From NCBI RefSeq assembly GCF_012911975.1, contig NZ_SMDQ01000017.1:1-64000 (forward strand): 64,000 bases of DNA, in the 5' to 3' direction. Shown here in pieces: positions 6,375 to 58,261 of the stretch. This stretch comes from Nodosilinea sp. P-1105 (GTDB lineage Bacteria > Cyanobacteriota > Cyanobacteriia > Phormidesmidales > Phormidesmidaceae). Under the pieces are notes generated by a model, which was not told where the DNA came from, searched no databases, and worked only from the letters and a program-made list of their open reading frames with translations. Numbering within the stretch: the stretch's first letter is position 1; the number at the start of each line of letters is the position of its first letter. The position numbers were made by a program, and so were the translations under genes.

Positions 6375-8507
6375 ATGATTTATTGCGTTAATCCTGTTTG
6401 CCCGAAGCGCCACAACCCAGAAGATGCCAGCCACTGTTTGACCTGTGGCACGTCCCTGCTAGTGCACAACCGCTACTGCTTACTGCGACGTCTCCATGAC
6501 TCTGAAGTGAAAGAAGTCTTTGAGGTGGAGGATGTGGTCGATAATGACACTAAAATCTTAAAAATTGTTAAGGCTTTTCCAAATATTGATTTTATTGAAA
6601 ATCATATTGAACGTATCCAGCGCGAGGCACGAACGTTGATTGGGCTCAACCTGCCCAGCGTCCCTAGAGTGGCACTTGATGGTTATTTCACACTTATACC
6701 AGCTCAAGGTGCTCCGTCTATACACTGCTTGGCCATGGAAAAAATCGAAGGCCAGAATCTAAAACAGTGGATAGAAACCCATGGCCCTATTTCAGCAGAT
6801 TTAGCCTGGCAATGGCTCAAACAACTGGTTGAGGTTATTGACCAGGTTCATCAAGAAAAATTGATCCATCGAGATGTTGAACCCTCCAACATTATTCGTC
6901 GTCCTGATGGCGCTTTAGCCTTAATTGACTTTGATACCGTTTGCAGTACCACAGAAACGGTTTTATCAGATACCGATAAAACTTTAATGATGTCCGACTG
7001 CTATGCCGCCCCCGAACAGTTTCCGGACTTCAAACAGTTTCAGAATAGAGCTTATCTTGAGTCAGATCTATATTCTCTGGGTCGTACCTTCGTTTATTTG
7101 CTGACGGGAAAATCTCCTTGCTCACTGGAAGAGGTTCATCGTCGACTGATCTGGCGCGATCATGTGCCAAAGCGCAATAGACAAGAGAGAAACAATGGCT
7201 TAACGGAGTTTCAAACTAAACAACTCTTCAATTTGATCGATCGGTTTATGGCCTATGAGCCTAAAGATCGCCCAAGTGACAAAAATAAAATTCTGCAGCG
7301 AATTCGTTGGATTGAGCTATATGGCAAAGTTCACACGTCAATCCTCAAAGCCTCAGCTGGGGCGGCACTATTACTGGTTGGCATTGGTCTAGGGTGGGGC
7401 ATTACCCAGTGGGAGGGCAATCCTGTCTCTGAACTAACTACCGATGCCTTAGTTGCTAATGAATGTCAGATGGGTGTTGCTGACGTCACAGATATGAGCT
7501 TTAGTCCTGATGGCAATTTCTTGGCTACTACTAGTTCTGATAGAAGCGTAAGAATATACGATGTGGGCGAGGAAGATATAAATGAGACTTGTGCTGAATA
7601 TGTAGAGCATAGTACAAGTGTTATAGCTGTGGCTTTTCGCCCAAGGGTAGGTGGTTCAGAGGTTAACCAATTTGCTACAGCTGGTTTAGATGGAACTATA
7701 AACTTTTGGGAGATTAACTCGCGTACCAATAGGGTTGAGTTGCTTTCTAAGCTGGAGCATGATGAGCCGGTAGTTGCAATGAGCTTTTCGCCTAATGGCT
7801 CATATTTGACGGCTGGATTCAGTGGTGGTGAAACTAGAGTTTGGAGCTTACAAGAGGATAAGCTAAGCCAAGAGAGCTTTCAAAGTGTAAGTTTGCCTGG
7901 TCATCAGTACATTACATCTACTGAATTTAGTGTAAATGAGACTTACCTTGCTACTGCTAGCTTAGGTGGTCGACCAATAGTTTTAGATCTAGGCAGCAAT
8001 GAAAACAATATCTTCGAAATTTCTCATGATGACGTTTTGTCTGTAGCATTTAATCCGATAGAAGCTTCAGAGATAGCAACTATGGGAACTGATAGTGTGA
8101 TCAAAATCTGGAATCTTGAAACACCAGACTCACCTGTTAGTAGGCTGGAAATGACAAGACGCTTAACTTCAATAGAGTTCAGTCCGAATGGGCGCAATAT
8201 TGCTGCTTTAGCAGCCGAGGGACGTATATCACCAACCACTCTTTGGAGGCGACATGAGGGTAGTTGGGCCGCAGATTCAATACCAGAAGAAAAGGTTATT
8301 TCCTTTGCTTTTAATCCTCAAGGTGGGCGTGAGATCGGCTTGATTACGAATCGTGCAGTTAAGGTGGTTTCGGTTGATGATCTAAGCAACCTTGAAGAGC
8401 TTTCATTAGGTGGTCAACCTGTAGATATTGCCTTTAGCCCTATAGATTCATCGCAACTTGCCATCGCAATGTCAGATGGTACCGTTCAACTACGAAGCTG
8501 GAGGTAA
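6375..8507 (+). CDS. 4-Cys serine/threonine protein kinase with C-terminal WD40 repeats
   Basis: A 710-residue protein. The N-terminal 4-Cys zinc-ribbon-like motif (CVNPVCPKRH...CLTCG) is typical of cyanobacterial Hanks-type kinases. The kinase domain spans about 35-310: candidate lysine in KILKIVKAF, catalytic loop IHRDVEPSNII, metal motif DFD in place of DFG, then YAAPEQF and SDLYSLGRT. One transmembrane helix lies near 325-345 (AALLLVGIGLGWGI). About seven WD40-like blades follow, with phrases such as MSFSPDGNFLATTSSDRSVRIYD. Topology would place the kinase inside and the propeller outside the membrane. The WD40 half is clearly AT-richer than its neighbours (7501-7560 is 38% GC), which suggests separate acquisition. 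It probably forms an operon with the preceding STAND gene. Confidence 0.9.
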   Translation: MIYCVNPVCPKRHNPEDASHCLTCGTSLLVHNRYCLLRRLHDSEVKEVFEVEDVVDNDTKILKIVKAFPNIDFIENHIERIQREARTLIGLNLPSVPRVALDGYFTLIPAQGAPSIHCLAMEKIEGQNLKQWIETHGPISADLAWQWLKQLVEVIDQVHQEKLIHRDVEPSNIIRRPDGALALIDFDTVCSTTETVLSDTDKTLMMSDCYAAPEQFPDFKQFQNRAYLESDLYSLGRTFVYLLTGKSPCSLEEVHRRLIWRDHVPKRNRQERNNGLTEFQTKQLFNLIDRFMAYEPKDRPSDKNKILQRIRWIELYGKVHTSILKASAGAALLLVGIGLGWGITQWEGNPVSELTTDALVANECQMGVADVTDMSFSPDGNFLATTSSDRSVRIYDVGEEDINETCAEYVEHSTSVIAVAFRPRVGGSEVNQFATAGLDGTINFWEINSRTNRVELLSKLEHDEPVVAMSFSPNGSYLTAGFSGGETRVWSLQEDKLSQESFQSVSLPGHQYITSTEFSVNETYLATASLGGRPIVLDLGSNENNIFEISHDDVLSVAFNPIEASEIATMGTDSVIKIWNLETPDSPVSRLEMTRRLTSIEFSPNGRNIAALAAEGRISPTTLWRRHEGSWAADSIPEEKVISFAFNPQGGREIGLITNRAVKVVSVDDLSNLEELSLGGQPVDIAFSPIDSSQLAIAMSDGTVQLRSWR

Positions 8508-8531
8508 ATATATTGGTACTTTGTCGCTCCG

Positions 8532-9914
8532 CTACTCTGCCATGTTTGCCTCTTGAGCTCGTGATAATAATCGACGTGTTGTCGATGCAGCTCGCCGCAT
8601 AATATCTCTTGAGTCGGTTTGGTCGATATTTATTAGTGCTTCTCGTAAATGTTCTTGTAAGACATTTGAAACGACTCCATAGTTTGGGATGCGAGGACGA
8701 CGAACCCAGGAATTATCAATGATATTAAGAAGTTGCGGATAATGATTATATTGGTTGACAATTGTAGGATCAAAGAATAAGAACCGAAGACTCGGAACAG
8801 AACCATGATCCAGGGTAAAACGTCGCTGCGAAGCCGGGCTAGTAAAAAAATTAATTGCTTCTACAGCAGCTTCAGGGTGTGAAGAATTATGAGCAATTCC
8901 AAAACCCCACCCGCCTTTAGTTGCGAATGAATTTTCGACATTACTAACCATAGCCTTCATACCTAGGTTTCCATGAGCAGTGGAACCAAACTGGTTTACT
9001 CTGACCCAGGCAGCAGGCCAATTACGCATGAATACAATATTGTCATCGCTAAATCTTTGACGTGTGGCATCTTCCCGATCGGAAAGCACTGCTTCTGGAG
9101 AAATACCTTCCTGAAGAGTGCGACGCAGAAAATTAACAGCCTCTATTGCTTCTTCATGATCCAGGCCAACAGACTGCTCTAAGTCGTCGCTTATTTTATC
9201 AGGCTTGATCCAATATCCGCCATGACCATGGAGAACTTCTAAAAACATGGCTGAAATTGCTTCATCTTTACGCCCTTGCCACAAATATCCCCCTTGCACA
9301 TCTGGTTGCTCTTTCAAGGTCGTAACAGCCTCAATCAGTTCATCAAAAGTATTAGGGGGTTGTAATCCGGCCTGATTTAATAAATCCCGACGGTAATATA
9401 AGACTCCGACGTCAGTGCGGAAGGGAATGCGGTAAAGTCTTTCACCATTACCATCTCCAACATCATATCGACCACTTTTTATTTCACTTTCGAGGAAGTT
9501 CTCCTCCTCGATGTTTGGGAAATACTCTGTTAAATCTTTTAGCCAACCTGACTCTACAAACTCTGAAAGCCAAATAATGTCAGTGTAGACCAAGTCATAT
9601 AATTGGGAAGAACCTGAGTCTTCTTCCTGTTGGAACGAATTGATATACAACTGCTTTAAGCCGTCACTACCTAATCCTTCATCTAAATTAATTCTAATAT
9701 TTGGATGCTTTGCTTGAAATTGATTGATTAAAGGAGCCCATGAAGTCCTTTCATCATCAGGCACGGCCATTCTTAACGTTATAGGGCCATCCGGTTGAGT
9801 CACATTGGTGCAACCATGAAACGCGATCGATATGGCTGCAACAATAGCAATAATCAGACCGAACCCTAGCTTTCTCAGTAGCCTTTGATGCGAATAAAGC
9901 CAATTCGTCAGCAT
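8532..9914 (-). CDS. Extracellular solute-binding lipoprotein (family 1, sugar type)
   Basis: A 460-residue protein with an N-terminal membrane segment ending in a lipobox-like ISIAFHGC, so lipid anchoring is likely. The rest follows the family 1 solute-binding fold: ITLRMAVPDDERTSW near the start, WLSEFVESGWLKDLTEYF, the sugar-site region IPFRTDVGVLYYRRDLL and GGWGFGIAHNSSHPEAA. Such proteins deliver oligosaccharides or related solutes to ABC permeases. No permease or ATPase gene lies nearby, so it is an orphan here. Its stop codon lies only 24 bp from that of the WD40 kinase, in convergent orientation. Confidence 0.85.
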   Translation of the reverse strand: MLTNWLYSHQRLLRKLGFGLIIAIVAAISIAFHGCTNVTQPDGPITLRMAVPDDERTSWAPLINQFQAKHPNIRINLDEGLGSDGLKQLYINSFQQEEDSGSSQLYDLVYTDIIWLSEFVESGWLKDLTEYFPNIEEENFLESEIKSGRYDVGDGNGERLYRIPFRTDVGVLYYRRDLLNQAGLQPPNTFDELIEAVTTLKEQPDVQGGYLWQGRKDEAISAMFLEVLHGHGGYWIKPDKISDDLEQSVGLDHEEAIEAVNFLRRTLQEGISPEAVLSDREDATRQRFSDDNIVFMRNWPAAWVRVNQFGSTAHGNLGMKAMVSNVENSFATKGGWGFGIAHNSSHPEAAVEAINFFTSPASQRRFTLDHGSVPSLRFLFFDPTIVNQYNHYPQLLNIIDNSWVRRPRIPNYGVVSNVLQEHLREALINIDQTDSRDIMRRAASTTRRLLSRAQEANMAE

Positions 9915-45539: not shown

Positions 45540-46087
45540 AACAGACAGCTAACCCCGCAAGTCTCTTGGGCAGATTTCGAGGCTAGGATCAACCCTCGCG
45601 CCCAGTTTGCACTTCCATGCACGATTGGATTAGCTAAGCAATCAATCCGAGTCACTTTCGCGATCTGCGTCATGCAAAACGATTACGGAAGATCTTGAGG
45701 ACACTGGGCCACAACCCAACCGCCAGTATTCCGTTGGCCAGTCGTAATAGTAGTGACGCCCAAAGCATTTATCGATTTTGGTCAAACTCGAAGGTGATGC
45801 CAGAGACGATTCTCCAGGGGCACATCGAAGGCACCGCGGCTCGAGCACGTGGCTATCAACCGGTTTTGTCGATACAGGACAGTACCGATTTAGACTTTAC
45901 CAGTCATCCCCACACGAAAGGGTTCCGCTTTACCAGGTTCCAAGCGCTAGTGACCCCTCAGTCTTCTCTCAGCAACCTTTTCCACAGCACTCAGACAGCC
46001 TTCAGTGGGCTCTCAGGCGGCACCCCCACTATAGAACTCATCGGCAGGGAACAAAACACAACCGCCTTGCCGCATCCAAACCTCTAA
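45540..46087 (+). pseudogene. IS4-type transposase remnant, N-terminal part only
   Basis: The 45695-46087 frame reads as the N-terminal third of an IS4/Tn5-like transposase: NPTASIPLASRNSSDAQSIYRF, FWSNSKVMPETILQGHIEGT and VLSIQDSTDLDFTSHPHTKG, where the Asp of QDSTDLDF is the first catalytic acid. The extreme N-terminus appears in another frame between about 45540 and 45690, implying a frameshift. It stops at 46087, before the second and third catalytic residues, and adjoins the TIR remnant. Confidence 0.7.
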
Positions 46088-46728
46088 CTACAGTGTTCAA
46101 GGAGGCCGAGGTCGCCCAACTGATCGATCAGGCGGGCTTTACAGTATGGCACCGAGATCACCTACTGCCCTGGGCGGCCAACTCAGAGGAGGCCACCTCT
46201 AGGGCCACTGAGGCCTGCGACAACTACATGATTCTGCTATCGTCTCAAGCCCTGCAAGACACCCTTTGCTTGCAGGGACTGCTGTTTGCCCTCAGCATGC
46301 ATAAGCGCATTGTGCCAGTGCAGGTGGAAGCCCTAGATCCGGCTCGTCTGCCTGAACCCTTGCAAACAATTCCCAGGGTGAATTTGCGCCAGCCTCAGTT
46401 ACCCCTCAGCCAAAGTGATGGGGGCCATCAGTTGTTACACCGTTTGCGTCATCAGGCCGAGTACCATCGCTGGCACACCCAGTTATTGCTCAAAGCCTTA
46501 ACTTGGGAGCGACAAGGGCGATCGCCCGCTTTACTCCTGAAAGGCCAAGAGCTGTGTCACTACCATCAATGGACTCACAAAGCACTCCTGCGGACTACGT
46601 ATCACCCCCTTCAGTTGCAAGTGTTGTATGTGGCCGAAAGTCTTAACCAGTCGCCGCTAAGGCCACTTTCCCAGGCTGAAGCCAGGCTCACTCGCGCTAA
46701 GACTTGGCTGAGCCAGTTGATCGGCTAG
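46088..46728 (+). pseudogene. TIR-domain protein lacking its 5' end
   Basis: The frame reads from about 46094 as a TIR domain without its first strand: EVAQLIDQAGFTVWHRDHLL, CDNYMILLSSQALQDTLCLQ and MHKRIVPVQVEALDPARLPE, then the helical tail of cyanobacterial TIR proteins (LLLKALTWERQGRSPALLLK and HPLQLQVLYVAESL). In active relatives the catalytic Glu follows a Cys two to three residues earlier (CxxE); here the sequence is CLQG, so the Glu is lost. An open frame continues upstream to an ATG at 45778 but only by reading the transposase remnant out of frame. Most likely a transposon-truncated pseudogene. Confidence 0.65.
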
Positions 46729-47211: not shown

Positions 47212-48546
47212 ATGGAAAATCAGCACACCTTAGTTGTTCGTGGCTGCATACTGGACTTTGTGAATGACCCCTTCTTTGTGTCAGACACTGAAGCCGTGCG
47301 CTTCATCCCCGATGGGGTACTGGTGATCCGCCAGGGGCAGGTGGCGGCCCTAGGCCCCTATGCAGAGCTCGGGTCTACCCTAGGGGGTGTGCCAATCGTC
47401 GACTACTCTGGCCAGCTGATCATGCCGGGGATGATTGACACCCACATTCACTATCCCCAAACCGGTATGATGGCCGCCTATGGCGAGCAACTGTTAGAGT
47501 GGCTCAACCGTTACACCTTCCCCACCGAGCGCAAGTTCAAAGATCCGGCCTATGCCCGCTCGGTGGCCGATATTTTCCTCGATCAGCTGTTAAGCCATGG
47601 CACCACCACCGCCTTGGTGTTTGCAGCGGTTTTCCCCGAGTCGGTAGATGCTTTTTTCGAAGCTGCAGCGGCCCGTAACCTGCGCATGATCAGCGGCAAG
47701 GTGATGATGGACCGCAATGCTCCCGATTATTTGAGGGACACGGCCGAAAGTTCCTATGTGGATTCCAAGGCGCTGATTCAGAAGTGGCACGGACGGGGGC
47801 GATTGCTCTACGCGGTTACCCCCCGGTTTGCCGGTACCTCTACTCCGGCTCAACTGAAGCTGGCGGCCCGGCTGCTGCAAGAGTTTCCTGATGTCTACCT
47901 GCACACCCACCTGTCCGAAAATGTGAATGAGGTGGCCTGGGTGCAGTCCCTCTTCCCTGACAGCAATGGCTATCTAGATGTGTATGACCGGGCCGGGTTA
48001 GTGGGCGATCGCGCCGTCTTTGCCCATGGCGTCCAGCTGACAGAGGCCGAGTTCCAGCGGCTCTCGGCGGCCAAGGCGGCGATTTCCTTTTGCCCCACCT
48101 CAAATCTATTTTTAGGCAGTGGCTTGTTTAAGATTGAGCAGGCCAAATCCCCCGAGCACCCGGTCAACGTCGGCCTCGGTACGGATGTCGGGGCGGGTAC
48201 CAGTTTTTCTCTACTGCAAACCGCCAATGAGGCTTACAAGGTGGCTCAACTGCGGGGTCAAAAGCTCTCTGCCTTCAAAGCCCTCTTTTTGGCCACCCTG
48301 GGGGGAGCCAGAGCCCTTAGCCTAGACGACAAGCTGGGCAACTTTAACCTAGGCAAAGAGGCTGACTTCATTGTCCTTAACCCCAGGGCAACGCCATTGA
48401 TGGCCTTTCGCAATTCCCCAGAAGCTCCCGACAGCCTAGAGGCCCTAGCCGATCGCGCCTTCTCCCTAATTATTTTGGGGGACGATCGCACCATCACCGC
48501 CACCTATGTCATGGGCCAACTGGCCTACTCATCCCCAGCCCCTTGA
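47212..48546 (+). CDS. guaD: Guanine deaminase
   Basis: A 444-residue amidohydrolase. The zinc ligands are visible in DTHIHYPQTGMMAAYG (HxH near residue 82), the later HTHLSENVNEVAWV (His near 232), AHGVQLTEAEF (His) and GLGTDVGAGTSFSLL (Asp near 323). PQTG and FPTERKFKDP are typical guanine deaminase features. The enzyme converts guanine to xanthine and ammonia and so recycles purine nitrogen. AGGGG/AAGG precedes the ATG. The last 22 bp overlap the end of the convergent kaiC gene. Confidence 0.93.
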   Translation: MENQHTLVVRGCILDFVNDPFFVSDTEAVRFIPDGVLVIRQGQVAALGPYAELGSTLGGVPIVDYSGQLIMPGMIDTHIHYPQTGMMAAYGEQLLEWLNRYTFPTERKFKDPAYARSVADIFLDQLLSHGTTTALVFAAVFPESVDAFFEAAAARNLRMISGKVMMDRNAPDYLRDTAESSYVDSKALIQKWHGRGRLLYAVTPRFAGTSTPAQLKLAARLLQEFPDVYLHTHLSENVNEVAWVQSLFPDSNGYLDVYDRAGLVGDRAVFAHGVQLTEAEFQRLSAAKAAISFCPTSNLFLGSGLFKIEQAKSPEHPVNVGLGTDVGAGTSFSLLQTANEAYKVAQLRGQKLSAFKALFLATLGGARALSLDDKLGNFNLGKEADFIVLNPRATPLMAFRNSPEAPDSLEALADRAFSLIILGDDRTITATYVMGQLAYSSPAP

Positions 48547-50081
48547 ACCCCCTGGATAATCCGCGATAGCTCACTTTTCTCATTCACAGAAATGCGAGTC
48601 GGGGAGCCGCTGATAATCCGCTCCAAATTGCGGAAGGAAGCCTTAATATCGGGTCCATCCTGATTAATGGTGTACTCGCGAATCCCTTTGTCATGCCAAG
48701 AGCCACGCATCTTAAAGACATTGATGGCTCGGGATAGCTCTCCCCGCACCTCAACATATTGCAGCATCAAGATGGTGTCGGTAATGGTAGAAATGTGGGA
48801 TTCCGTAATCGAATGCAGCCCCATGAACTGCTCTGTGGTGTTGGTGAAAAAGCCGGTAATTTCCTCCTGTTTAGCAAACCCGGTTACCCCAATCACAAAT
48901 TGCCGGAAAGAGTTATTGCTCACCCCCCGATCTAGGGCCGAGAGGGAGTCAATCGCTATCCGTGAGGGCTTAAACTGCGAGATTTCCGTTTTAATAATTT
49001 GCAGGTGGTCTTCCAGTCCGGCAGACTCGGGATAGGCACAGATAATCTTTAGCAGCCCCTTCTCTTCCATGGCTTCAAAGTCAACCCCCCAGGAGTAGGC
49101 GTTGCGGGACAACTGAGCCCGAGACTCTTCGTAGGCAAACAGAATAGCCCGTTCTCCGTTTTTGCAGCCATCCACCAAAAACTTACTGACCAGTAGAGTC
49201 TTGCCAGTGCCCGTTGCTCCTGTCGCCAAAATAATGGAATCTCTGAAGAAACCACCGCCGCACATTTCATCTAGGGTGGGTACGCCGGACGACACCCGAG
49301 CATTAGACGATCGCTGGGTAAGCTGCATCGCCCCGAGGGGGAAGATATTCACCCCATTGTTGGTAATCGTAAACGGGTACTCCCCCTTCATGTGGGTTGT
49401 ACCCCGCAGTTTTAAAATTTCGATAGTCCGGCGGCGGCGTTCCCCCTCCAGGGCGTTACGCACGATCACCACATTATCGGACACAAATTCTTCTACCCCA
49501 AACCGGGCCACAGGACCATACTCATCCAACCGTTCTGTGGTCATCACCGTGGTCACCCCTATCAGCTTCAGGCGAGCCACCAACCGAAAAATTTCCCGCC
49601 GCACCACCGAAGCCGCGTCATACTGTTGAAAAACAGCCGTCACCGAATCAATCGATACCCGTCGGGCCTTATATTTCCGAATCGCGTACTGAATTCGTTC
49701 AATCAGGGCTGATAGGTCAAAGTTACCGACAATATCTTGCCCTTCAGGATCGGGGGAGGCATCCAAAATAAACAGCTTGCCCTCATCCACCAGCTTTTGC
49801 AGGTCCCAACCAAAGCTGTAGGCATTTTGAATAATGTCTTCGGGGGACTCCTCAAAGGTGACGAACACCCCGTTCTCGCCAAAGTCAACAATCCCGTTAT
49901 AGATAAACTGCACAGCCAGTAGGGTCTTCCCCGTACCTGAAGTACCACTGACCAGCGTCGATCGCCCGGCTGGAATACCACCATGGCTGATGTCATCAAA
50001 GCCTTCAATCATGGTGCGGATTTTGCGGACGCCGACCGGAGTCTTAGATTGTTGTGCGTCGTTTTGGGCTGATTCAGTCAT
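48525..50081 (-). CDS. kaiC: Circadian clock ATPase/kinase KaiC
   Basis: A 518-residue double-RecA protein. The CI P-loop is GTSGTGKT (about residues 45-52) and the CII P-loop is GATGTGKT (about 287-294), with catalytic Glu pairs FEE and YEE downstream. The phosphorylation sites Ser431 and Thr432 are found in SHISTITDT, at exactly the numbers used for Synechococcus KaiC. The C-terminal A-loop/tail (ISVNEKSELSRIIQG) that binds KaiA is present. It is the central clock oscillator. The gap to kaiB is 279 bp, unusually long for kaiBC. Confidence 0.97.
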   Translation of the reverse strand: MTESAQNDAQQSKTPVGVRKIRTMIEGFDDISHGGIPAGRSTLVSGTSGTGKTLLAVQFIYNGIVDFGENGVFVTFEESPEDIIQNAYSFGWDLQKLVDEGKLFILDASPDPEGQDIVGNFDLSALIERIQYAIRKYKARRVSIDSVTAVFQQYDAASVVRREIFRLVARLKLIGVTTVMTTERLDEYGPVARFGVEEFVSDNVVIVRNALEGERRRRTIEILKLRGTTHMKGEYPFTITNNGVNIFPLGAMQLTQRSSNARVSSGVPTLDEMCGGGFFRDSIILATGATGTGKTLLVSKFLVDGCKNGERAILFAYEESRAQLSRNAYSWGVDFEAMEEKGLLKIICAYPESAGLEDHLQIIKTEISQFKPSRIAIDSLSALDRGVSNNSFRQFVIGVTGFAKQEEITGFFTNTTEQFMGLHSITESHISTITDTILMLQYVEVRGELSRAINVFKMRGSWHDKGIREYTINQDGPDIKASFRNLERIISGSPTRISVNEKSELSRIIQGVQGAGDE

Positions 50082-50360: not shown

Positions 50361-50675
50361 TCAACTAAAGACATCATCTTCCCGCAGTTCGTCATAGAGT
50401 AGGTCTAAGCCAATCAGCACCCGCTCTCGGTCTGATAAATCACCAATAATCTTGCGGACGGGCGGTGGCAAAATCTTTGATAAGGTCGGGGTGGCTAAAA
50501 TCTTGTCTTCTTCAGCCAACTGAGGATTTTTCAGCACGTCAATCACCTTCAGGGCATAGACACCCTGGAACTCTTCCTCCAAGATATTATTCAGGGTTTT
50601 AAGGGCCCGAATGGAGTTAGGGGTATTGCCCGCAACGTAGAGCTTGAGAATATAAGTCTTTTTAATGGAGCTCAT
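50361..50675 (-). CDS. kaiB: Circadian clock protein KaiB
   Basis: A 104-residue thioredoxin-like metamorphic protein, starting [20 protein letters not shown], with the conserved [20 protein letters not shown] and [13 protein letters not shown] segments. It binds phosphorylated KaiC in its rare fold and sequesters KaiA. Length and sequence are typical, including the acidic C-terminus ([11 protein letters not shown]). It lies between kaiA and kaiC on the same strand. Confidence 0.97.
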
Positions 50676-50927: not shown

Positions 50928-51818
50928 TCACGGTTCGCGGGGAATAGAACGACGGTACATTTCACAGAGATGGGCAATCACGTCAATCAGCGTCAGGCGA
51001 TAATCCAGTAAAATCTCCTCGCTGCGCCCTTCTAGCTTTAACTGCTTTGAGAATTCATCCATTAACTCCATATGCATCTCGACAATTTGAGAGACTGAAA
51101 TATCAACCATAAACGCCTGATTGACAAAATCGTCAATCGCTTGATTCAGCTTAGGGTCATTGGCAAAGTAGCTCAGAATAATTTGGCGGTAGTTTGCCTT
51201 CAGCTGCTTCAGAAAGGAATGGCGATCGTCCTGGCTCATATGGCGCAAAAAATTATCAGGATGGCGTTTGTAGTAAACGCCGAGATAGCCGAGGCGAGCT
51301 TTTAGTTTTTCAGTCAAACGTTCCTGTTGAGCCCTCAGGGGAAACGGCGACGGCCACTCGATGACTGGAGATGGAGTCGGGATCACGCCGCTGTCTGCGG
51401 GTAGCTCTAAAAATGCTTGAATAGCCTGGCGAATGGCCGCTTCGAGTTGTTTGGGCCTGTGAGCGCTGATCCCGACAATAGCTTTATGATAGTGGCTGAG
51501 CAGGGGCTTCGGAATGTCTGGAGCATCAGCCATGGCTGTAACCAGGCTGGGTTTGGTTGGTTGCTGCCCCGGTAATACGACCACAGTCGGCAACAGTAAC
51601 CCTTGCTCTGAAAGGCCCTGCCATAGGTCCTCTGACAACAACGGGGGGTCTAGCACCAGACAGTCTGCCTGACCGTGATTGGCTTGCAGCCAGCCCAGGC
51701 AGGCGGGGATTGAATCAGTTTGAGACACCACATAGTTAGACGATTGGGGGCTTTCCGCGATCGCATGGGTGATGTCTTTAGACCGGGTTAAAAAATGTAT
51801 ATGCAGGGGAGAAGCCAA
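50928..51818 (-). CDS. kaiA: Circadian clock protein KaiA, full length
   Basis: A 296-residue KaiA with both halves. The N-terminal pseudo-receiver (about 1-140, DCLVLDPPLLSEDLWQGL) comes first, then a linker, and the C-terminal four-helix dimer domain (about 190-290, RLGYLGVYYKRHPDNFL, FLKQLKANYRQIILSYFAN and LMDEFSKQLKLEGRSEEILL). KaiA stimulates KaiC autophosphorylation by binding its C-terminal tail. The full length contrasts with the truncated KaiA of Nostoc-type genomes. It is followed by kaiB on the same strand. Confidence 0.96.
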   Translation of the reverse strand: MASPLHIHFLTRSKDITHAIAESPQSSNYVVSQTDSIPACLGWLQANHGQADCLVLDPPLLSEDLWQGLSEQGLLLPTVVVLPGQQPTKPSLVTAMADAPDIPKPLLSHYHKAIVGISAHRPKQLEAAIRQAIQAFLELPADSGVIPTPSPVIEWPSPFPLRAQQERLTEKLKARLGYLGVYYKRHPDNFLRHMSQDDRHSFLKQLKANYRQIILSYFANDPKLNQAIDDFVNQAFMVDISVSQIVEMHMELMDEFSKQLKLEGRSEEILLDYRLTLIDVIAHLCEMYRRSIPREP

Positions 51819-52080
51819 AACAGCTGCGTCTTTCTATGAGCGAAATTGATCTATGAGCGAAATTGCGGTTTACCTACCCAAGCTGACCTGGAGGCGATAA
51901 AGGTAGTTCAATTGTAATCGGTGGAAGGCGGAATACCGAGGCTAATCTGAAGCAGGGACTATAGTGCTAACGTAAGGGCTAACTCTGGGCGGCCGTTGGT
52001 TTAGGCTTGGCTCCCAAAAGGGCTGCGCTAAACGGGGTACCCAGTTGGGCTCATAGGACCTGCATTTTCGCAATTAAGCG
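51819..52080. other. Divergent promoter region of kaiA and the CBS/HisKA gene
   Basis: 262 bp between divergent starts. It must hold both promoters and could coordinate the two genes. A 13-bp direct repeat TATGAGCGAAATT (51835-51847 and 51853-51865) lies near the kaiA start. Confidence 0.45.
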
Positions 52081-54027
52081 ATGTCGTTACCTGCGATCGA
52101 TCAATTTCTGACCCAGGCCCCGAGCTATACCCTGGACACCCCTTTAGGCACCATTGCCCAGGACTGGCGTCATCAAGCTGTGGAAGGGCATAGCCACCTG
52201 ATTGTGGTTGATGCCCAGCGTCGTCCGATGGGATCGTTGGCCCTAGGGTGCCTATGGGCAGCGGCGACTGATGTCACGTTGGCCCATTTAGAAGCCGACC
52301 TAGAGCCGATTGTGCAGGTAACGGCCCCCCAGACGTTAGCAGAGCTTTGGCCCCTGATGACGGGGGTAAATTCCCAAGTGGTGGTGGTGGTGGATCGGGC
52401 GATGACCTATCAAGGGGTGGTGAGTGCTGATCGCCTGCTCGGTTGGGTCGCCCGTCACGCCAAAATGACAGACCAGGGGCTCGTGCCTATGTCTGCCTCG
52501 GCGGCATCGCCCCTAGCTCAGGATAATTTAGGCTGGGTGGTCGATCTGAGTCACGCGCTTAAAACCCCGATTACTACGCTACTGGGGCTGTCTACCCTGC
52601 TGTTAGATAGTCGGCTGGGGTCTTTGAGCGATCGCCAATTTCGCTATGTTGTCTTGATGCGGCAGGCAGTGCGCAAGATTATGACCTTAGTTAACCAGCT
52701 ACTTGACTGGTTACGGCTGGAATCTGACCAACTACCGCTCCATCTAGAAGCCCTTGATCTAGAGGCATTTATTACTGATCTGGTCCCGAGCTTTTTGGCG
52801 ACCAAAAGCGAGGACCTAGTGGTGGACGAGTGGCCCCAACAATTCAAGATTCACCGCCGGGTTACACCGCCGGTGGTGATGGCAGACGCTCTCCGTTTGC
52901 GCCAGGGTCTGCACTATGCCCTCGACAGCCTCATGCAGCAGGGGTTTGAGCCCCGATATCTGGAGATCGATGATTGGGGCCGATGGCTAGGCCTTACCCT
53001 AGCAGGTCAAAGCCCAGCCCCAGATCCAGCGACCCAGCCATTCCAGATGCCCCCCTCGTCAGAACCCAAACGGATTGCCCCTGATGCCCTAGATGCCCTG
53101 GGGTTGACCTTGGCTCAGCGCCTGGTTCAACTCCATGGAGGTGACCTGTGCGAATTGGCACTTCCAGACGAGAAACACCTCACCCTGCTGCTGCCCATGG
53201 CCGACCAACCGTTACCCCTAGCTCAGCCCGATCATGCGGCTACAGTGTTGGTGGGGATCGTGGGCCAGCAACCCCAGCTGATTGCCCAGGCTCACCAGGG
53301 CTTGCAGGACAGCCGCTACCGGCTGATATCTATCCCCAACCTGAGTCGTTGGACTGCTCTGCAACAACGACTGCCCCTGGCTGGGGTCATCCTCTGTGAG
53401 GTTGCCCTCCCTGTGGAGGGGGCTGTGGCTGATCAGACGATGGATCTGCCCTGGAGGTTAGGGGCTGATTGCAGACCGCAAGGGATCGTCACACTAGGAT
53501 CTGAAAACATCACCAGTTGGCACGGCATACCCGCGATGGCGCTGCCGCCCGATGGTGTTGCTTCTGGGTTAAAGGCGGCCCTAGATGATTTGATTGGGAT
53601 GACGTCTTGGCCCGCAGCGGTATCCCAGCCCCCGGGGTTAACCCTGCTGCTGTTAAGTGCCGATACCCTAGAGCGGCCCACAGATAGGCTATCCACTAAC
53701 TTGCAAGCTTGGCTGCAACATTATCACTGTCGCCTATTGCAGGTTGACAATCTCACCCAGGCCAGCGTTCTCAGCCGGGTTTGGCAACCCGATGGGATTA
53801 TTCTGCTGGGGGCGGAAACCTTAGGGGCTGACTATCTCCAAGCCTTGGCCCAATGCCCTGAGTTGGCCCCCCTCCCCCTGGTGACCTTTGCGGATGTGGC
53901 TCAGCCACCGTCGGCCTCTGATCTGGGGCTGCGGTTTGTGCCCTGTGCTCAGGTGGTGCAGCAACCGCCCCAGTTGGGAAGCCTGGCCCTAATTCGGGCA
54001 GTAGTGGCTGCCCGCCGGACAGGTTAG
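52081..54027 (+). CDS. CBS-pair, HisKA and degenerate ATPase/receiver-like protein next to kaiA
   Basis: A 648-residue soluble protein. A CBS pair (about 12-130) leads to a HisKA dimerisation domain (about 152-215) with the phospho-acceptor motif DLSHALKTPITTLLG intact. The ATP-binding domain is badly degenerate: the N-box reads DALRLRQGLHYALDSL without the key Asn, and the G1 box (DxGxG) is replaced by DDWGRWLGL. Only the last part, LGLTLAQRLVQLHGGDL, remains. Two receiver-like domains follow (about 388-515 and 525-648) without clear phospho-acceptor Asp. The organisation recalls clock input/output kinases such as CikA with a pseudo-receiver, but the ATPase half is lost. Divergent from kaiA by 262 bp. 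Confidence 0.75.
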   Translation: MSLPAIDQFLTQAPSYTLDTPLGTIAQDWRHQAVEGHSHLIVVDAQRRPMGSLALGCLWAAATDVTLAHLEADLEPIVQVTAPQTLAELWPLMTGVNSQVVVVVDRAMTYQGVVSADRLLGWVARHAKMTDQGLVPMSASAASPLAQDNLGWVVDLSHALKTPITTLLGLSTLLLDSRLGSLSDRQFRYVVLMRQAVRKIMTLVNQLLDWLRLESDQLPLHLEALDLEAFITDLVPSFLATKSEDLVVDEWPQQFKIHRRVTPPVVMADALRLRQGLHYALDSLMQQGFEPRYLEIDDWGRWLGLTLAGQSPAPDPATQPFQMPPSSEPKRIAPDALDALGLTLAQRLVQLHGGDLCELALPDEKHLTLLLPMADQPLPLAQPDHAATVLVGIVGQQPQLIAQAHQGLQDSRYRLISIPNLSRWTALQQRLPLAGVILCEVALPVEGAVADQTMDLPWRLGADCRPQGIVTLGSENITSWHGIPAMALPPDGVASGLKAALDDLIGMTSWPAAVSQPPGLTLLLLSADTLERPTDRLSTNLQAWLQHYHCRLLQVDNLTQASVLSRVWQPDGIILLGAETLGADYLQALAQCPELAPLPLVTFADVAQPPSASDLGLRFVPCAQVVQQPPQLGSLALIRAVVAARRTG

Positions 54028-54103: not shown

Positions 54104-57100
54104 TTGCTCGGGTTAAGTAAGGCTCTGACTACTCCTCTCACCATGAATAACGCTGAGGCCTATGACTTGGGTCCACAAACTGCTCATCCAGTACGACTGT
54201 CCTGCTTGGCGCTGTCAGACTTAATCTGTCGCCTGACCCAGATGATAGCTAGCCCCTCAGACTGGTCAACTAGCCTAGACATGGTTGTTAAGGTAGTGGG
54301 GCAGGCCCTGGGCGCGATCGCCGGGGGAGTCTGGCACCAGCCTTGCAACCCAAGGAGTCCTGGCCCTAGCAGCGGCCTAATCTATGGCCCTCCAGCTATA
54401 CGGAACCCTGCTATCGATGATTTTATTGCCACCGCCTGGGGCCAAACCACCTGGCAGTGGTCATGGGTTGCCCCAGATGCCCCTGATGGATCTCAGCCAG
54501 GGGTCTATTCTGGTTTAACCTTGCCCCTCGATCAGCCGGAACGGTTAGCTCTGCTAGCCTGGTTTTTTACCGTTCCCCCAGACTTATCTGCCGATCGCCA
54601 GCGTCAGATCACTAAGCTTTGTGCCCACATTAACCATCTCTGGCGGCTGAAACAAACTAGCCTGGCCTTGGGGCAGCAGCAGCAGCGGTATCAAAGCCTG
54701 ATTGACGTACTGCCGGGTATTGCCTTCCAGGCTAATCCTGATGCCGATTGGTCCATGCGCTACTTAAGCGCGGGTTGTAAACCGTTGACAGGCTACGAGG
54801 CTGAGGAGCTGGTGGTGGAGAACGTTTCGCCCCCAGGGGGAGCTATCTCCTATAACCAGGTGATGCACCCAGAGGATCGGGCAACGGTGCTTGCCAGTAT
54901 TCAGCGGGCCGTTGACACCGGTGAATCCTATGGGGTGGAATATCGCATTGTCACCCGCCAGGGAGACATCAAGTGGGTTTGGGAAAAAGGGGCGGCAACG
55001 GTGGATGATCAGGGCCAAATTCAGCAGGTGGAAGGCTTTATTAGCGACATTACGTCTTTGAAGCTATCTGAAGCGGCCCTACGCCAGGTCGAGCAAACCC
55101 TCAAAGCGCGGGAAGCTTTCTTACAGTTGGTGCTGAACAGCATTCCCCATCCCGTGTTTTGGAAAGATCGCCAAAGTCGCTACCTCGGCTGTAATCAAGT
55201 GTTTGCAGAGGTGATGGGGCTGGCTGACCCGCTCGAGATTATTGGGCAGACCGATGATCAACTGCCCTATATCAGCCAGGAAGAGGCTGAATACTACCAA
55301 AACTGCGATCGCATCGTCATGCAGCGCAATCAACCAAACACCAGGGTGATCGAACTCCAGACCTATCCCCAAGGTCAGGGCTGGATCTCTTGCAGTCGCC
55401 TGCCCATGCACAATGAGCAGGGGGAGGTGATCGGGATCTTGTGTAGCTTTGAGGATGTCACCGATCACATTACCGCTCAACAGGCTCTGAAGACACGGGA
55501 GCAATACCTCAGTACCCTGGCCGAAATTCAGCGCCAGTTAATCGTTAGTCAGTGGGATTGGGATAGTAGCCAGGTGCAGCATATCTTCGCCGCCCTGGGG
55601 CGGACTTCTGGGGCCAGTCGAGTTTACTACTACGAGCTATTTAGCGACAGCGATGGCACTCCCCTGATGCGGCAACGGGTGGAATGGTCAGCCCCCGGTA
55701 TTTTACCCACCACGGCGGATAGACGCTTTCAGGCGATTCCAGTCGTGCCGCTATTTAGCGATTGGCTCAACCAAGTGAACCGCCAGGGTAGCCTCAACTG
55801 TACAGTCCATGACTTTACGGTGGCCCAGCGGCAAATTTTGGCGGCCCCGCCCAGCAATATTCAATCCATCCTGTTGCTACCCCTGATGGTCAGAGGTCAC
55901 ATGCAGGGCGTCATGGGCTTTAGCAACTGCCTCATTCCCCAACTTTGGGAACGCTCCGAAGTCGAGCTATTGCGGGTGGCCACTGCCGACATGGGCCTAG
56001 CCATCGAACGTCAGCAGGTGGAACGCTCCCTCAAACAGGCAGAGCAAAAATACCGCAGCATTTTTGAGAATGCCGTGGAAGGTATTTTTCAAAGTACGCC
56101 AGAAGGACAGTATTTGACCGTCAACCCCATGCTGGCCCGAATTTATGGCTACGACTCCCCCACGGAGTTGATCCACACCCTGGCCGACATCAACCGGCAG
56201 CTGTATGTCCAGCCTAACCGCCGTCTCGACTTCGTGAGCCAAATGCAGCAAGCCGGGTCAGTCTTGGGGTTTGAGTCCCAGGTATACCGCAAAGATGGTC
56301 AAGTTATTTGGATCTCAGAATCTGCCCGGGCTATCTACAGCGATCGCGGTGAAATTATCGCCTATGAAGGCACCGTTGAAGACATCACCGAGCGTAAACA
56401 GAGAGAAGCCGCTATCCTGCGACAGGACCTGCTATTGCAGGGGGTGGCCCAGGCCAGTCAGTGCCTGCTCACCACGGCCGACTTTAGCGACGCCATTGGC
56501 CAAGTCTTGCAGATCCTAGGGCAGGCCGCCGCTGCCGATCGCGCCTACATTTATCAGCAGCATCTCCACCCCACCACTGGGGAGCAGGCCATAAGCATGA
56601 AATATGAATGGACCCGCGATGGCATTGCGCCTAGTATCGACCAGCCCCACTGGCAAAATCAGTCGTTTAAGCAGCTAGGGATCGAGCGCTGGCACCAGGC
56701 CTTTATGACTGGCCAGTCTATCCATGGCCTGACTCGCACCTTCCCTGCCCCAGAGCAAGTCTTGCTCAAGCTCGACCATATTCTATCCATTCTGATGGTC
56801 CCCATTTTCATCGATACCCAGCTCTGGGGCTACATTGGCTTTGATGCCTGCCTCGAGCCTTGGGAATGGACCAGCAATGACGAGTCAATTTTGCGAGCTG
56901 TTGCCGCTAGTTTAGGGGGAGCCTTGAAGCGACAGCAGACAGAAGCCCAAATGTGCTACCAGGTGTATCACGACACGCTGACCAACCTACCCAACCGGGC
57001 CTTTTTTAACCGTCATCTGCCCGAGGTAATTGCCCAAGCGCACGCTACCCAACAGCTGCTGGCGGTGATGTTTTTGGATTTAGACCGCTTCAAAACCATT

Positions 57101-58261
57101 AACGATACCCTGAGTCACGCCGTGGGCGATCTATTATTGCAGCAGGTGGCCCAGCGCATTGCCACGGCCTTACGTGCAGACGACATCGTTGCCCGCTGGG
57201 GGGGGGATGAATTCACCTTAATTTTGCCGCATCTGGCCCATGCCCAAGATGCCGCTAAAATTGCCCAGCGTATTGCCGATCAGATCTCTACCCCGTTTGT
57301 GCTGCATACCCACGAATTACATGTGACTTGCAGCATTGGCATTACCCTCTTTCCCCAAGACGGCAACGACATGACAACCCTGCTGCAAAATGCTGATGCT
57401 GCCATGTACCGGGCCAAAGAGCGGGGGCGTAACAACTATCAGTTCTATACCGAAAACCTCAGTACCGAGGCTGCCCAGCGACTGAAGTTAGAGAGTTCCT
57501 TGCACCATGCCCTGGCCCGCCAAGAATTTATGCTGTACTACCAGCCCCAAATCAACGTGACCACTGGGCAGGCCGAACAGATGGAAGCGCTCTTGCGGTG
57601 GCGGCATCCTCAAATGGGGCTGATTCCCCCCTATGAATTTATCCCGCTGGCAGAAGAGAACGGCCTGATTGTGCCCATTGGTGAGTGGGTGATCCGTACC
57701 GCTTGCCACCAACTGATGGTCTGGCGGCAAGCGGGTCTTCCCTCAATTAAGGTGGCCGTGAATTTGTCGGCTCGCCAGTTGCAGCATCCTGACCTGGTCA
57801 GATTTGTGGCTCAAACCTTGAACGATACGGCACTGCCAGCCCACTGTCTAGAGCTAGAAATTACTGAAACCGCTGCCATGGCCGATGTCCAGGCCTCGAT
57901 TCAACGGCTGCAAGAGTTACGTCAGCTGGGGGTGCAAATTTCCATGGATGACTTTGGGACCGGTTACTCTTGCCTCAGCTATCTGAAGCAGTTTCCCCTG
58001 AATGGTCTCAAGATCGATCGCGCCTTTGTCAAAGACTTGACCACCGACCTGGCTGACCAGGCGATGGCCAAGGCGATTATAGCCATGGCTAAGGGGCTTA
58101 ATTTAACCGTAGTGGCCGAAGGGGTAGAAACCGAGGCGCAGCGACAGTGTCTATACGCCTTAGGCTGCACCAAAATGCAGGGGTATTTATTTGGCCGCCC
58201 CCAACCTCAAGAGGTCGCCGAAGCCTATCTGACTCAATCTAAGCCAATAGTCTGCCCTTAA
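54104..58261 (+). CDS. PAS/GAF multi-sensor diguanylate cyclase/phosphodiesterase
   Basis: Up to 1385 residues from TTG 54104; an ATG at 54143 (MNNAEAYDLG) is an equally good start. Domains in order: GAF-like N-terminus (about 30-190), PAS (195-325), PAS (335-465), GAF (470-640), PAS (645-765), GAF (770-945), GGDEF (950-1110) and EAL (1125-1375). The cyclase motif RWGGDEF is intact. The phosphodiesterase has EALLRW, DDFGTGYS and AEGVETEAQ, so both activities are plausible. It sets the level of cyclic di-GMP, probably controlling motility or biofilm. No transmembrane segment is seen. It converges on trpA. Confidence 0.95.
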   Translation: MLGLSKALTTPLTMNNAEAYDLGPQTAHPVRLSCLALSDLICRLTQMIASPSDWSTSLDMVVKVVGQALGAIAGGVWHQPCNPRSPGPSSGLIYGPPAIRNPAIDDFIATAWGQTTWQWSWVAPDAPDGSQPGVYSGLTLPLDQPERLALLAWFFTVPPDLSADRQRQITKLCAHINHLWRLKQTSLALGQQQQRYQSLIDVLPGIAFQANPDADWSMRYLSAGCKPLTGYEAEELVVENVSPPGGAISYNQVMHPEDRATVLASIQRAVDTGESYGVEYRIVTRQGDIKWVWEKGAATVDDQGQIQQVEGFISDITSLKLSEAALRQVEQTLKAREAFLQLVLNSIPHPVFWKDRQSRYLGCNQVFAEVMGLADPLEIIGQTDDQLPYISQEEAEYYQNCDRIVMQRNQPNTRVIELQTYPQGQGWISCSRLPMHNEQGEVIGILCSFEDVTDHITAQQALKTREQYLSTLAEIQRQLIVSQWDWDSSQVQHIFAALGRTSGASRVYYYELFSDSDGTPLMRQRVEWSAPGILPTTADRRFQAIPVVPLFSDWLNQVNRQGSLNCTVHDFTVAQRQILAAPPSNIQSILLLPLMVRGHMQGVMGFSNCLIPQLWERSEVELLRVATADMGLAIERQQVERSLKQAEQKYRSIFENAVEGIFQSTPEGQYLTVNPMLARIYGYDSPTELIHTLADINRQLYVQPNRRLDFVSQMQQAGSVLGFESQVYRKDGQVIWISESARAIYSDRGEIIAYEGTVEDITERKQREAAILRQDLLLQGVAQASQCLLTTADFSDAIGQVLQILGQAAAADRAYIYQQHLHPTTGEQAISMKYEWTRDGIAPSIDQPHWQNQSFKQLGIERWHQAFMTGQSIHGLTRTFPAPEQVLLKLDHILSILMVPIFIDTQLWGYIGFDACLEPWEWTSNDESILRAVAASLGGALKRQQTEAQMCYQVYHDTLTNLPNRAFFNRHLPEVIAQAHATQQLLAVMFLDLDRFKTINDTLSHAVGDLLLQQVAQRIATALRADDIVARWGGDEFTLILPHLAHAQDAAKIAQRIADQISTPFVLHTHELHVTCSIGITLFPQDGNDMTTLLQNADAAMYRAKERGRNNYQFYTENLSTEAAQRLKLESSLHHALARQEFMLYYQPQINVTTGQAEQMEALLRWRHPQMGLIPPYEFIPLAEENGLIVPIGEWVIRTACHQLMVWRQAGLPSIKVAVNLSARQLQHPDLVRFVAQTLNDTALPAHCLELEITETAAMADVQASIQRLQELRQLGVQISMDDFGTGYSCLSYLKQFPLNGLKIDRAFVKDLTTDLADQAMAKAIIAMAKGLNLTVVAEGVETEAQRQCLYALGCTKMQGYLFGRPQPQEVAEAYLTQSKPIVCP

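Follow-up and report, generated by a model that had tools for sequence, protein, structure and literature searches.

Most of what is known about the cyanobacterial clock comes from S. elongatus. Among the systems closest to the protein considered here, CikA has a GAF domain and a working CA (ATPase-like) domain, ShkA combines a working CA domain with an active second receiver (REC) and is not known to have a CBS pair, and RetS and DivL, likewise without a known CBS pair, are histidine kinase-like proteins that act on other kinases. At the motif level, the HxxxT position is tied to phosphatase activity and (T/S)xxD is the nucleotide-ligand motif of CBS domains. As defined in the consulted portion of PMC12632262, a pseudo-receiver is a receiver that lacks at least one of five receiver residues, and the same portion describes for ShkA a pseudo-receiver mechanism controlled by c-di-GMP.

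The window, that is, the whole stretch of 64,000 nucleotides of Nodosilinea sp. P-1105 DNA that was analysed, contains an ORF for a 648-aa protein that diverges from the kaiA ORF across a short gap, with kaiB and kaiC following after kaiA (Table 1). A preliminary description of this DNA had ascribed to the gene a 262-bp promoter region shared with the kaiABC cluster, and the ORF coordinates agree with that observation and confirm it. The gene itself is genuine. It represents more than a chance ORF, since a homologue is present in nearly all genomes of the same genus and purifying selection acts on the gene.

Table 1. Features of the kaiA-divergent locus and of its surroundings (window positions)
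Feature	Position	Strand	Basis
kaiC	48525..50081	-	Pfam
kaiB	50361..50675	-	Pfam
kaiA	50928..51818	-	Pfam
Shared intergenic region kaiA/648-aa gene, 262 bp	51819..52080	.	Conserved block about 51906-51937
kaiA-divergent degenerate hybrid kinase, 648 aa	52081..54027	+	ORF, relatives
CBS pair, residues 1-126, without (T/S)xxD nucleotide motif	52081..52458	+	AF2; VIA Z 14.9 to MgtE; profile
HisKA helix pair, residues 144-214; H158 at 52552-52554, then Ala not Glu	52510..52722	+	Pfam, AF2, alignment
CA (ATPase-like) domain, residues 220-375; S283/G309 replace N-box Asn/G1 Asp; dN/dS 0.11	52738..53205	+	AF2, VIA-align, alignment
First receiver-like domain, residues 386-508; acceptor column Cys439	53236..53604	+	AF2, profile, alignment
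Second receiver-like domain, residues 516-648; acceptor column Leu576; signature CRxLxVDDLxQAxLLxRVWQP	53626..54024	+	AF2, profile, alignment
PAS/GAF-GGDEF-EAL protein, next gene downstream of 648-aa gene	54104..58261	+	Pfam; recurrent neighbour in genus

The association of this gene with kaiA extends far beyond the strain. Within the order (63 genomes of one family) 42 genomes hold a match at E <= 1e-20, and in the genus 25 of 26 do. A class sample comprised 166 genomes, 146 of them with KaiA; among the matches listed by the profile search, 91 of the 146 KaiA genomes have a homologue no more than 5 kb from kaiA, divergent from it in 91/91, and the other 55 have no such ORF within 5 kb, seven of them carrying one elsewhere, partly at contig ends. 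The listed matches end at E 7.3e-80; those counted are the rows down to E 1.1e-88 plus G166, G152 and G183, and the listed matches that were not counted reach model position 544 at most. The 20 KaiA-less genomes give no match better than E 4.0e-74, the weakest counted kaiA neighbour (G183) standing at 4.3e-81 and other kinases of the class reaching 3.6e-98 in the same search; these genomes are few and related, so that common ancestry, or gaps in the assemblies that span the two genes, weaken the comparison, and a diverged homologue below 4.0e-74 may be present in them. A named collection that overlaps the class sample, made up of the best 80 of 83 relatives at 79 loci, has KaiA beside the gene at 67 loci, all divergent and none in the other orientation. 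At the 12 other named loci the upstream DNA is shorter than 1 kb in seven and measures 1.7 kb in one, and no KaiA was found upstream in L078, L083, L099 and L104 despite about 4.9-5.4 kb of DNA. Named hosts of the pair include Nodosilinea, Leptolyngbya, Microcoleus, Scytonema, Calothrix, Oculatella and Elainella. The preliminary description had allowed that the gene might lie beside kaiA in this strain only; the kaiABC neighbourhoods that it proposed to compare show conserved synteny, and the recurrence of the divergent pairing disposes of that idea. Judged by gene order, the link to kaiA is stronger than could be known from the window, and the family to which the 648-aa protein belongs, as its degenerate form, is by homology widespread in cyanobacteria.

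The pairing is not universal. Among the matches listed, no such kaiA neighbour was seen in any sampled KaiA genome of family codes f2 (small genomes, presumably picocyanobacteria), f5, f12, f16 and f18, nor in the sampled genomes of g7, g10 and g14, three genera of the window's own family, or in single genomes of other codes. In this family, the kaiA loci without a kinase neighbour are L158 (G054, g10), L159 (G062, g14) and L160 (G015, g7), which are apparent gene losses. A genome of 2,696,255 bp, which we take to be S. elongatus PCC 6301, has no such ORF beside kaiA, and one of 2,593,857 bp, taken to be T. vestitus BP-1, has such an ORF of 710 aa. A search of plasmids returned three partial kinase matches, none covering 80 %. 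Since 55 of the 146 KaiA genomes have no such gene within 5 kb and three genera of the window's family have none beside kaiA, the gene is not a required part of the clock.

At the structural level, the AlphaFold2 model of the 648-aa protein (53-row alignment; mean pLDDT 82.6, pTM 0.63) is consistent with the domains listed in Table 1. In VIA-align, residues 2-129 of the model superpose on the MgtE CBS pair (Z 14.9, rmsd 2.8, 126 aligned), and residues about 140-376 on the HisKA-CA regions of histidine kinases (Z about 14-15). In the model itself, the two C-terminal domains show the strand/helix alternation of receivers over residues 388-507 and 519-647. Pfam recognises HisKA at residues 155-215 (E 5.6e-10) and a sub-threshold CBS match (E 0.0048), with no HATPase_c, Response_reg or GAF match in the protein. 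The best PDB sequence matches are histidine kinase regions of RetS (E 2.4e-14), DivL being listed as well (3.1e-8), and the top Foldseek match of the model is full-length ShkA (E 7.5e-11, query TM 0.23), on which VIA-align gives a Z of 13.3 but an rmsd of 25.7.

The catalytic residues were compared in an alignment that combined the window protein with 21 of the 79 named loci and 73 further loci, near-duplicates and three genus genomes having been left out before the 73 loci. From these 95 rows L227, a 428-aa ORF without the HisKA motif, was removed to give 94; smaller alignments had 53 and 36 rows. The phospho-acceptor His (H158) is kept in 94/94 rows, where the cutting of rows favoured a motif starting with H, and it is invariant in 53/53 rows of an alignment made without that step. 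The N-box Asn is kept in 59 of the 94 rows and the G1 Asp in 62, and the ATP-binding motifs are intact in 59. In the 648-aa protein, S283 aligns with the N-box Asn and G309 with the G1 Asp, and the G2 GLxLA stretch is partly retained. The loss of the N-box and G1 residues that had been noticed from the window is thereby upheld and the kinase is degenerate, the loss of ATP binding being predicted from these motifs. A HisKA motif described at the same time as perfect proves to be altered: H158 is present but the acidic residue after it is gone, replaced by A159 (HALKTP vs HELKTP). HE or HD is found in 59/59 rows with an intact N-box and G1, and Ala or Ser follows the His in 14 of the 35 non-intact rows, all of the window's genus (L043 is placed there by the name Nodosilinea and by its tree position). 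The case for a dead kinase is consequently stronger than first thought. T162, at the HxxxT position, is kept in the 648-aa protein.

The receiver-like domains show a similar loss of residues. Both had been described as devoid of an obvious phospho-acceptor, and this stands for the window protein, in which C439 and L576 occupy the acceptor columns of the first and the second domain, respectively; for the family it needs correction, as the Asp of the second receiver is kept in 70/94 rows (41/59 intact rows and 29/35 others). In the 59 intact rows, the acceptor column of the first receiver holds Asn in 46, Ser in eight, Asp in three and another residue or a gap in two; the first acidic position of strand 1 is replaced in all 59, the second is kept as Glu or Asp in 58, and the beta-5 Lys is kept in five. 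The consensus of the second receiver has no acidic pair on strand 1. By the definition in the consulted portion of PMC12632262, both domains are, on their aligned residues, pseudo-receivers. The pseudo-receiver state of the first receiver is common to the intact kinases as well and hence probably preceded the loss of the kinase. The REC2 signature CRxLxVDDLxQA is present in the 648-aa protein. In hhalign, the first receiver of the genus matches that of the intact forms at 94.8 % (E 5.5e-8, 53 columns), and the second receiver of the genus matches the family profile at 99.9 % (E 3.5e-36) over nearly its whole length, a value that is partly circular because the window's own row is among the 25 of the family profile.

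A kinship of these domains to the receivers of KaiA and CikA, which had also been suggested, was not found in tests of little power. The KaiA_N profile PF21714 has no match in the 648-aa protein at E up to 1, and receiver profiles compared with the KaiA N-domain reach 0.3, 0.5, 2.7 and 1.5 % in hhalign (1.5 % for the first receiver of the genus), in a weak test, given that its control, first against second receivers of the same proteins, reaches only 34 and 32 %. Against the PDB, the receiver profiles match ordinary receivers (best 60 of 243) or give weak matches in the other search. Whole-model fold searches contain no KaiA or CikA chain among the 50 matches listed, a list filled with kinases and for that reason uninformative on this point. 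In a PDB sequence search at E up to 10, 2j48, which we take to be the CikA receiver, is not listed for the 648-aa protein.

Relatives with a complete kinase are found in the same family. Among ten relatives examined with Pfam, the five long ones (L058, L063, L076, L102, L117) have HATPase_c at E 3.3e-26 or better and a receiver, which is strong in four of them and borderline in L058 (E 0.0098). Among the five short ones, HATPase_c is missing at E 0.01 from four and sub-threshold in L040. The 710-aa relative of the putative T. vestitus genome has a HATPase_c match (E 2.6e-7) though its N-box Asn is replaced by Trp. In the model of the intact L076 (pLDDT 70.8, pTM 0.44), an extra mixed region separates CBS from HisKA, and CA is followed by three receiver-like domains, the third of them C-terminal at residues 921-1083; compared with it, the 648-aa protein is devoid of the extra region and of the third receiver. 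A quick gene tree implies at least four changes for the N-box and five for G1. Forcing the 35 non-intact rows into a single clade gives a tree that is better by 15.7 log units (p-AU 0.694), so that a single origin stays acceptable and the tree does not demonstrate independent losses of the ATP site. Both in family code f1 and in f25, intact rows (L205 and L206, respectively) occur together with lost rows, which is a taxonomic argument for separate losses; long branches and gene transfer may lie behind this mixture.

The shared intergenic region contains a block with the consensus TTGTCAATTGTAAAGGGTGGTTGCCAGAATAC at about 51906-51937. Its core, AATTGTAA, is present in the window and in all 12 loci aligned, the window version having diverged outside the core. 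In several distant loci, elements resembling TTATTGTAAT occupy the interval that separates kaiA from the gene, but many other loci have none. A scan for promoter and terminator consensus sequences found nothing, and a search for HLR1-type sites (RpaB consensus) between the two genes gave scattered half-site matches only.

On the other side of the gene, 13 of the 19 named genus loci have a downstream GGDEF-EAL gene in the same orientation. Of the six others, L051, L054 and L057 stop within the kinase gene, and L050, L052 and L056, which do hold downstream DNA, have no GGDEF-EAL match there. Such matches also occur 3' of the gene in L032 (same family, other genus) and in the partial locus L113, and none was found near the gene in most loci of other genera. 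In L052, at 7872-9425, kaiC lies beyond the kinase gene with kaiA and kaiB in the usual place, a rearranged kai cluster. In the window, an amidohydrolase ORF (47212-48546; guanine-deaminase-like, named by eye) is convergent with kaiC, and several genus loci have a relative of it close to kaiC; overlapping ORFs near the kai cluster at 45695-46728 look by eye like transposase remnants. Elsewhere in the same genome, L147 encodes a GAF-HisKA-HATPase_c-REC protein whose receiver matches 2j48 at E 1.2e-16 (CikA-like), and a 403-aa ORF carries a KaiB-like domain and is SasA-like by that feature alone. With these two present, the 648-aa protein would be an additional component and not a replacement.

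Sequence comparison establishes the recurrent divergent pairing with kaiA, the existence of intact relatives, the loss of motifs in this lineage, the kept His and purifying selection. The reading that we tentatively prefer, at somewhat less than an even chance, is that the protein is a kinase-dead but functionally constrained member of a family of kaiA-divergent hybrid kinases with pseudo-receivers, which would act through its HisKA dimer in the clock pathway. A different view, rather unlikely but deserving serious attention, is that of a two-component regulator of some other process that merely adjoins kaiA, the pair being kept by promoter sharing or local constraint. Divergent neighbours may indeed share a promoter region and nothing else, the gene is absent within 5 kb of kaiA in more than a third of the KaiA genomes (55/146, among the matches listed), and the downstream neighbour in the genus is a GGDEF-EAL protein; against this view stand the same divergent pairing over many family codes and the 20 KaiA-less genomes without a match better than 4.0e-74. 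That the gene is a decaying pseudogene is hardly credible. Catalytic residues have been lost, and the genus relative L035 (G029) has the gene broken up into two ORFs that overlap, owing to a frameshift or an assembly error; yet the frame is open in the window, and dN/dS against the nearest relative G027 (456 codons, 88 % identical) is 0.18 overall, with 0.11 for CA, 0.28 for the first receiver and 0.18 for the second, and 0.21-0.24 in five other genus pairs, compared with 0.12-0.22 for KaiA in three pairs. These ratios largely refute decay, and the degenerate CA domain, kept by selection, argues that the gene is not simply decaying.

Other alternatives give the protein a more specific function. 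Identity with CikA, or with a CikA paralogue doing the work of CikA, would fit a hybrid histidine kinase with a pseudo-receiver; it was rejected as highly improbable, given that the GAF domain is missing, that the separate CikA-like L147 has a receiver matching 2j48 and that 2j48 is not listed for the 648-aa protein. A switch by analogy with ShkA, in which the pseudo-receiver would bind c-di-GMP from the neighbouring GGDEF-EAL protein and thereby release the HisKA domain, is improbable: ShkA is the top Foldseek match with the same DHp-CA-REC-REC order and the GGDEF-EAL gene recurs downstream in the genus and in L032 and L113, but L050, L052, L056 and most loci of other genera have none there, and the CA domain cannot obviously use ATP. 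Very improbable, too, is a CBS pair that senses energy charge and reads AMP, ADP or ATP for the clock. Such adenylate sensing had been proposed for the CBS pair, of which the fold is upheld by the superposition on MgtE, and AMPK gamma chains are weak matches of the CBS profile (E about 5e-4); on the opposite side, neither CBS1 (GSLALGC) nor CBS2 (GVVSADR) has the (T/S)xxD motif, and the family consensus is likewise without it, which makes energy charge an unlikely input. Taken as a whole, the interpretation in the preliminary description keeps the kaiA link, the degenerate kinase and the lost receiver residues, and leaves unsupported energy sensing and, on a weak test, the kinship to the KaiA receiver.

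Under the preferred reading of a kinase-dead hybrid kinase, the 648-aa protein would carry out no ATP-driven autophosphorylation and would act through its HisKA dimer as a phosphoryl acceptor or, with HxxxT kept, as a phosphatase for a two-component protein of the clock or its output. Alternatively, it might resemble RetS or DivL in its mode of action and be the inactive member of a pair with an active kinase. The receiver-like domains would serve as docking or inhibitory modules, and the pathway would be the Kai clock or its output, a clock role that we infer from synteny only. A gene that may, by a guess from its numbering, be the Nostoc orthologue, all2883, appears in a table of predicted CRP regulons in the consulted portion of PMC2633013. 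No description of the kaiA-divergent gene was found in the literature searched, which covered few subscription papers and included the consulted portions of PMC8064755, PMC11372060, PMC12632262, PMC5520375, PMC8113500 and PMC2633013. It is conceivable, though less likely than not, that most KaiA-bearing cyanobacteria outside the small-genome group encode, divergently from kaiA, an unnamed clock protein that is a hybrid kinase with a CBS fold and pseudo-receivers and was overlooked since S. elongatus is without it, and that this protein has turned into a kinase-dead HisKA-dimer regulator in certain lineages, the present one among them, for instance a phosphatase or phosphoryl sink acting on RpaA or an inactive partner of CikA or SasA. 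The protein may thus assist the bacterial clock in a way that has gone unrecognised. If the clock role is true, lineages other than that of S. elongatus would have, in the gene that recurs divergently beside kaiA, an input or output component that is missing from the present picture. Having lost the ATP site and kept the His, the family is well suited to asking what function is left to a histidine kinase once its kinase activity is gone.

Compared with the described systems, the 648-aa protein resembles CikA, which is linked to the Kai system, in being a hybrid histidine kinase with a pseudo-receiver; it differs in having a CBS pair in place of GAF, a dead instead of a working CA domain, two receiver-like domains and a position beside kaiA. 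The KaiA pseudo-receiver (PF21714) is, like its receiver-like domains, a receiver fold without a phospho-acceptor, in that case within the clock, whereas neither Pfam nor the weak profile test connects them. With ShkA of Caulobacter it has in common the DHp-CA-pseudo-REC-REC order, and it departs from it by its CBS pair and from the working CA and active second REC of that protein. RetS and DivL are among its best PDB sequence matches, RetS first, and have no known CBS pair and different partners and pathway. Place, domain order and REC2 signature are common to it and to the intact kaiA-divergent hybrid kinases, for example those of Microcoleus (L076) and Scytonema (L102), which keep HATPase_c and the extra region between CBS and HisKA, together with, in L076, the third C-terminal receiver-like domain.
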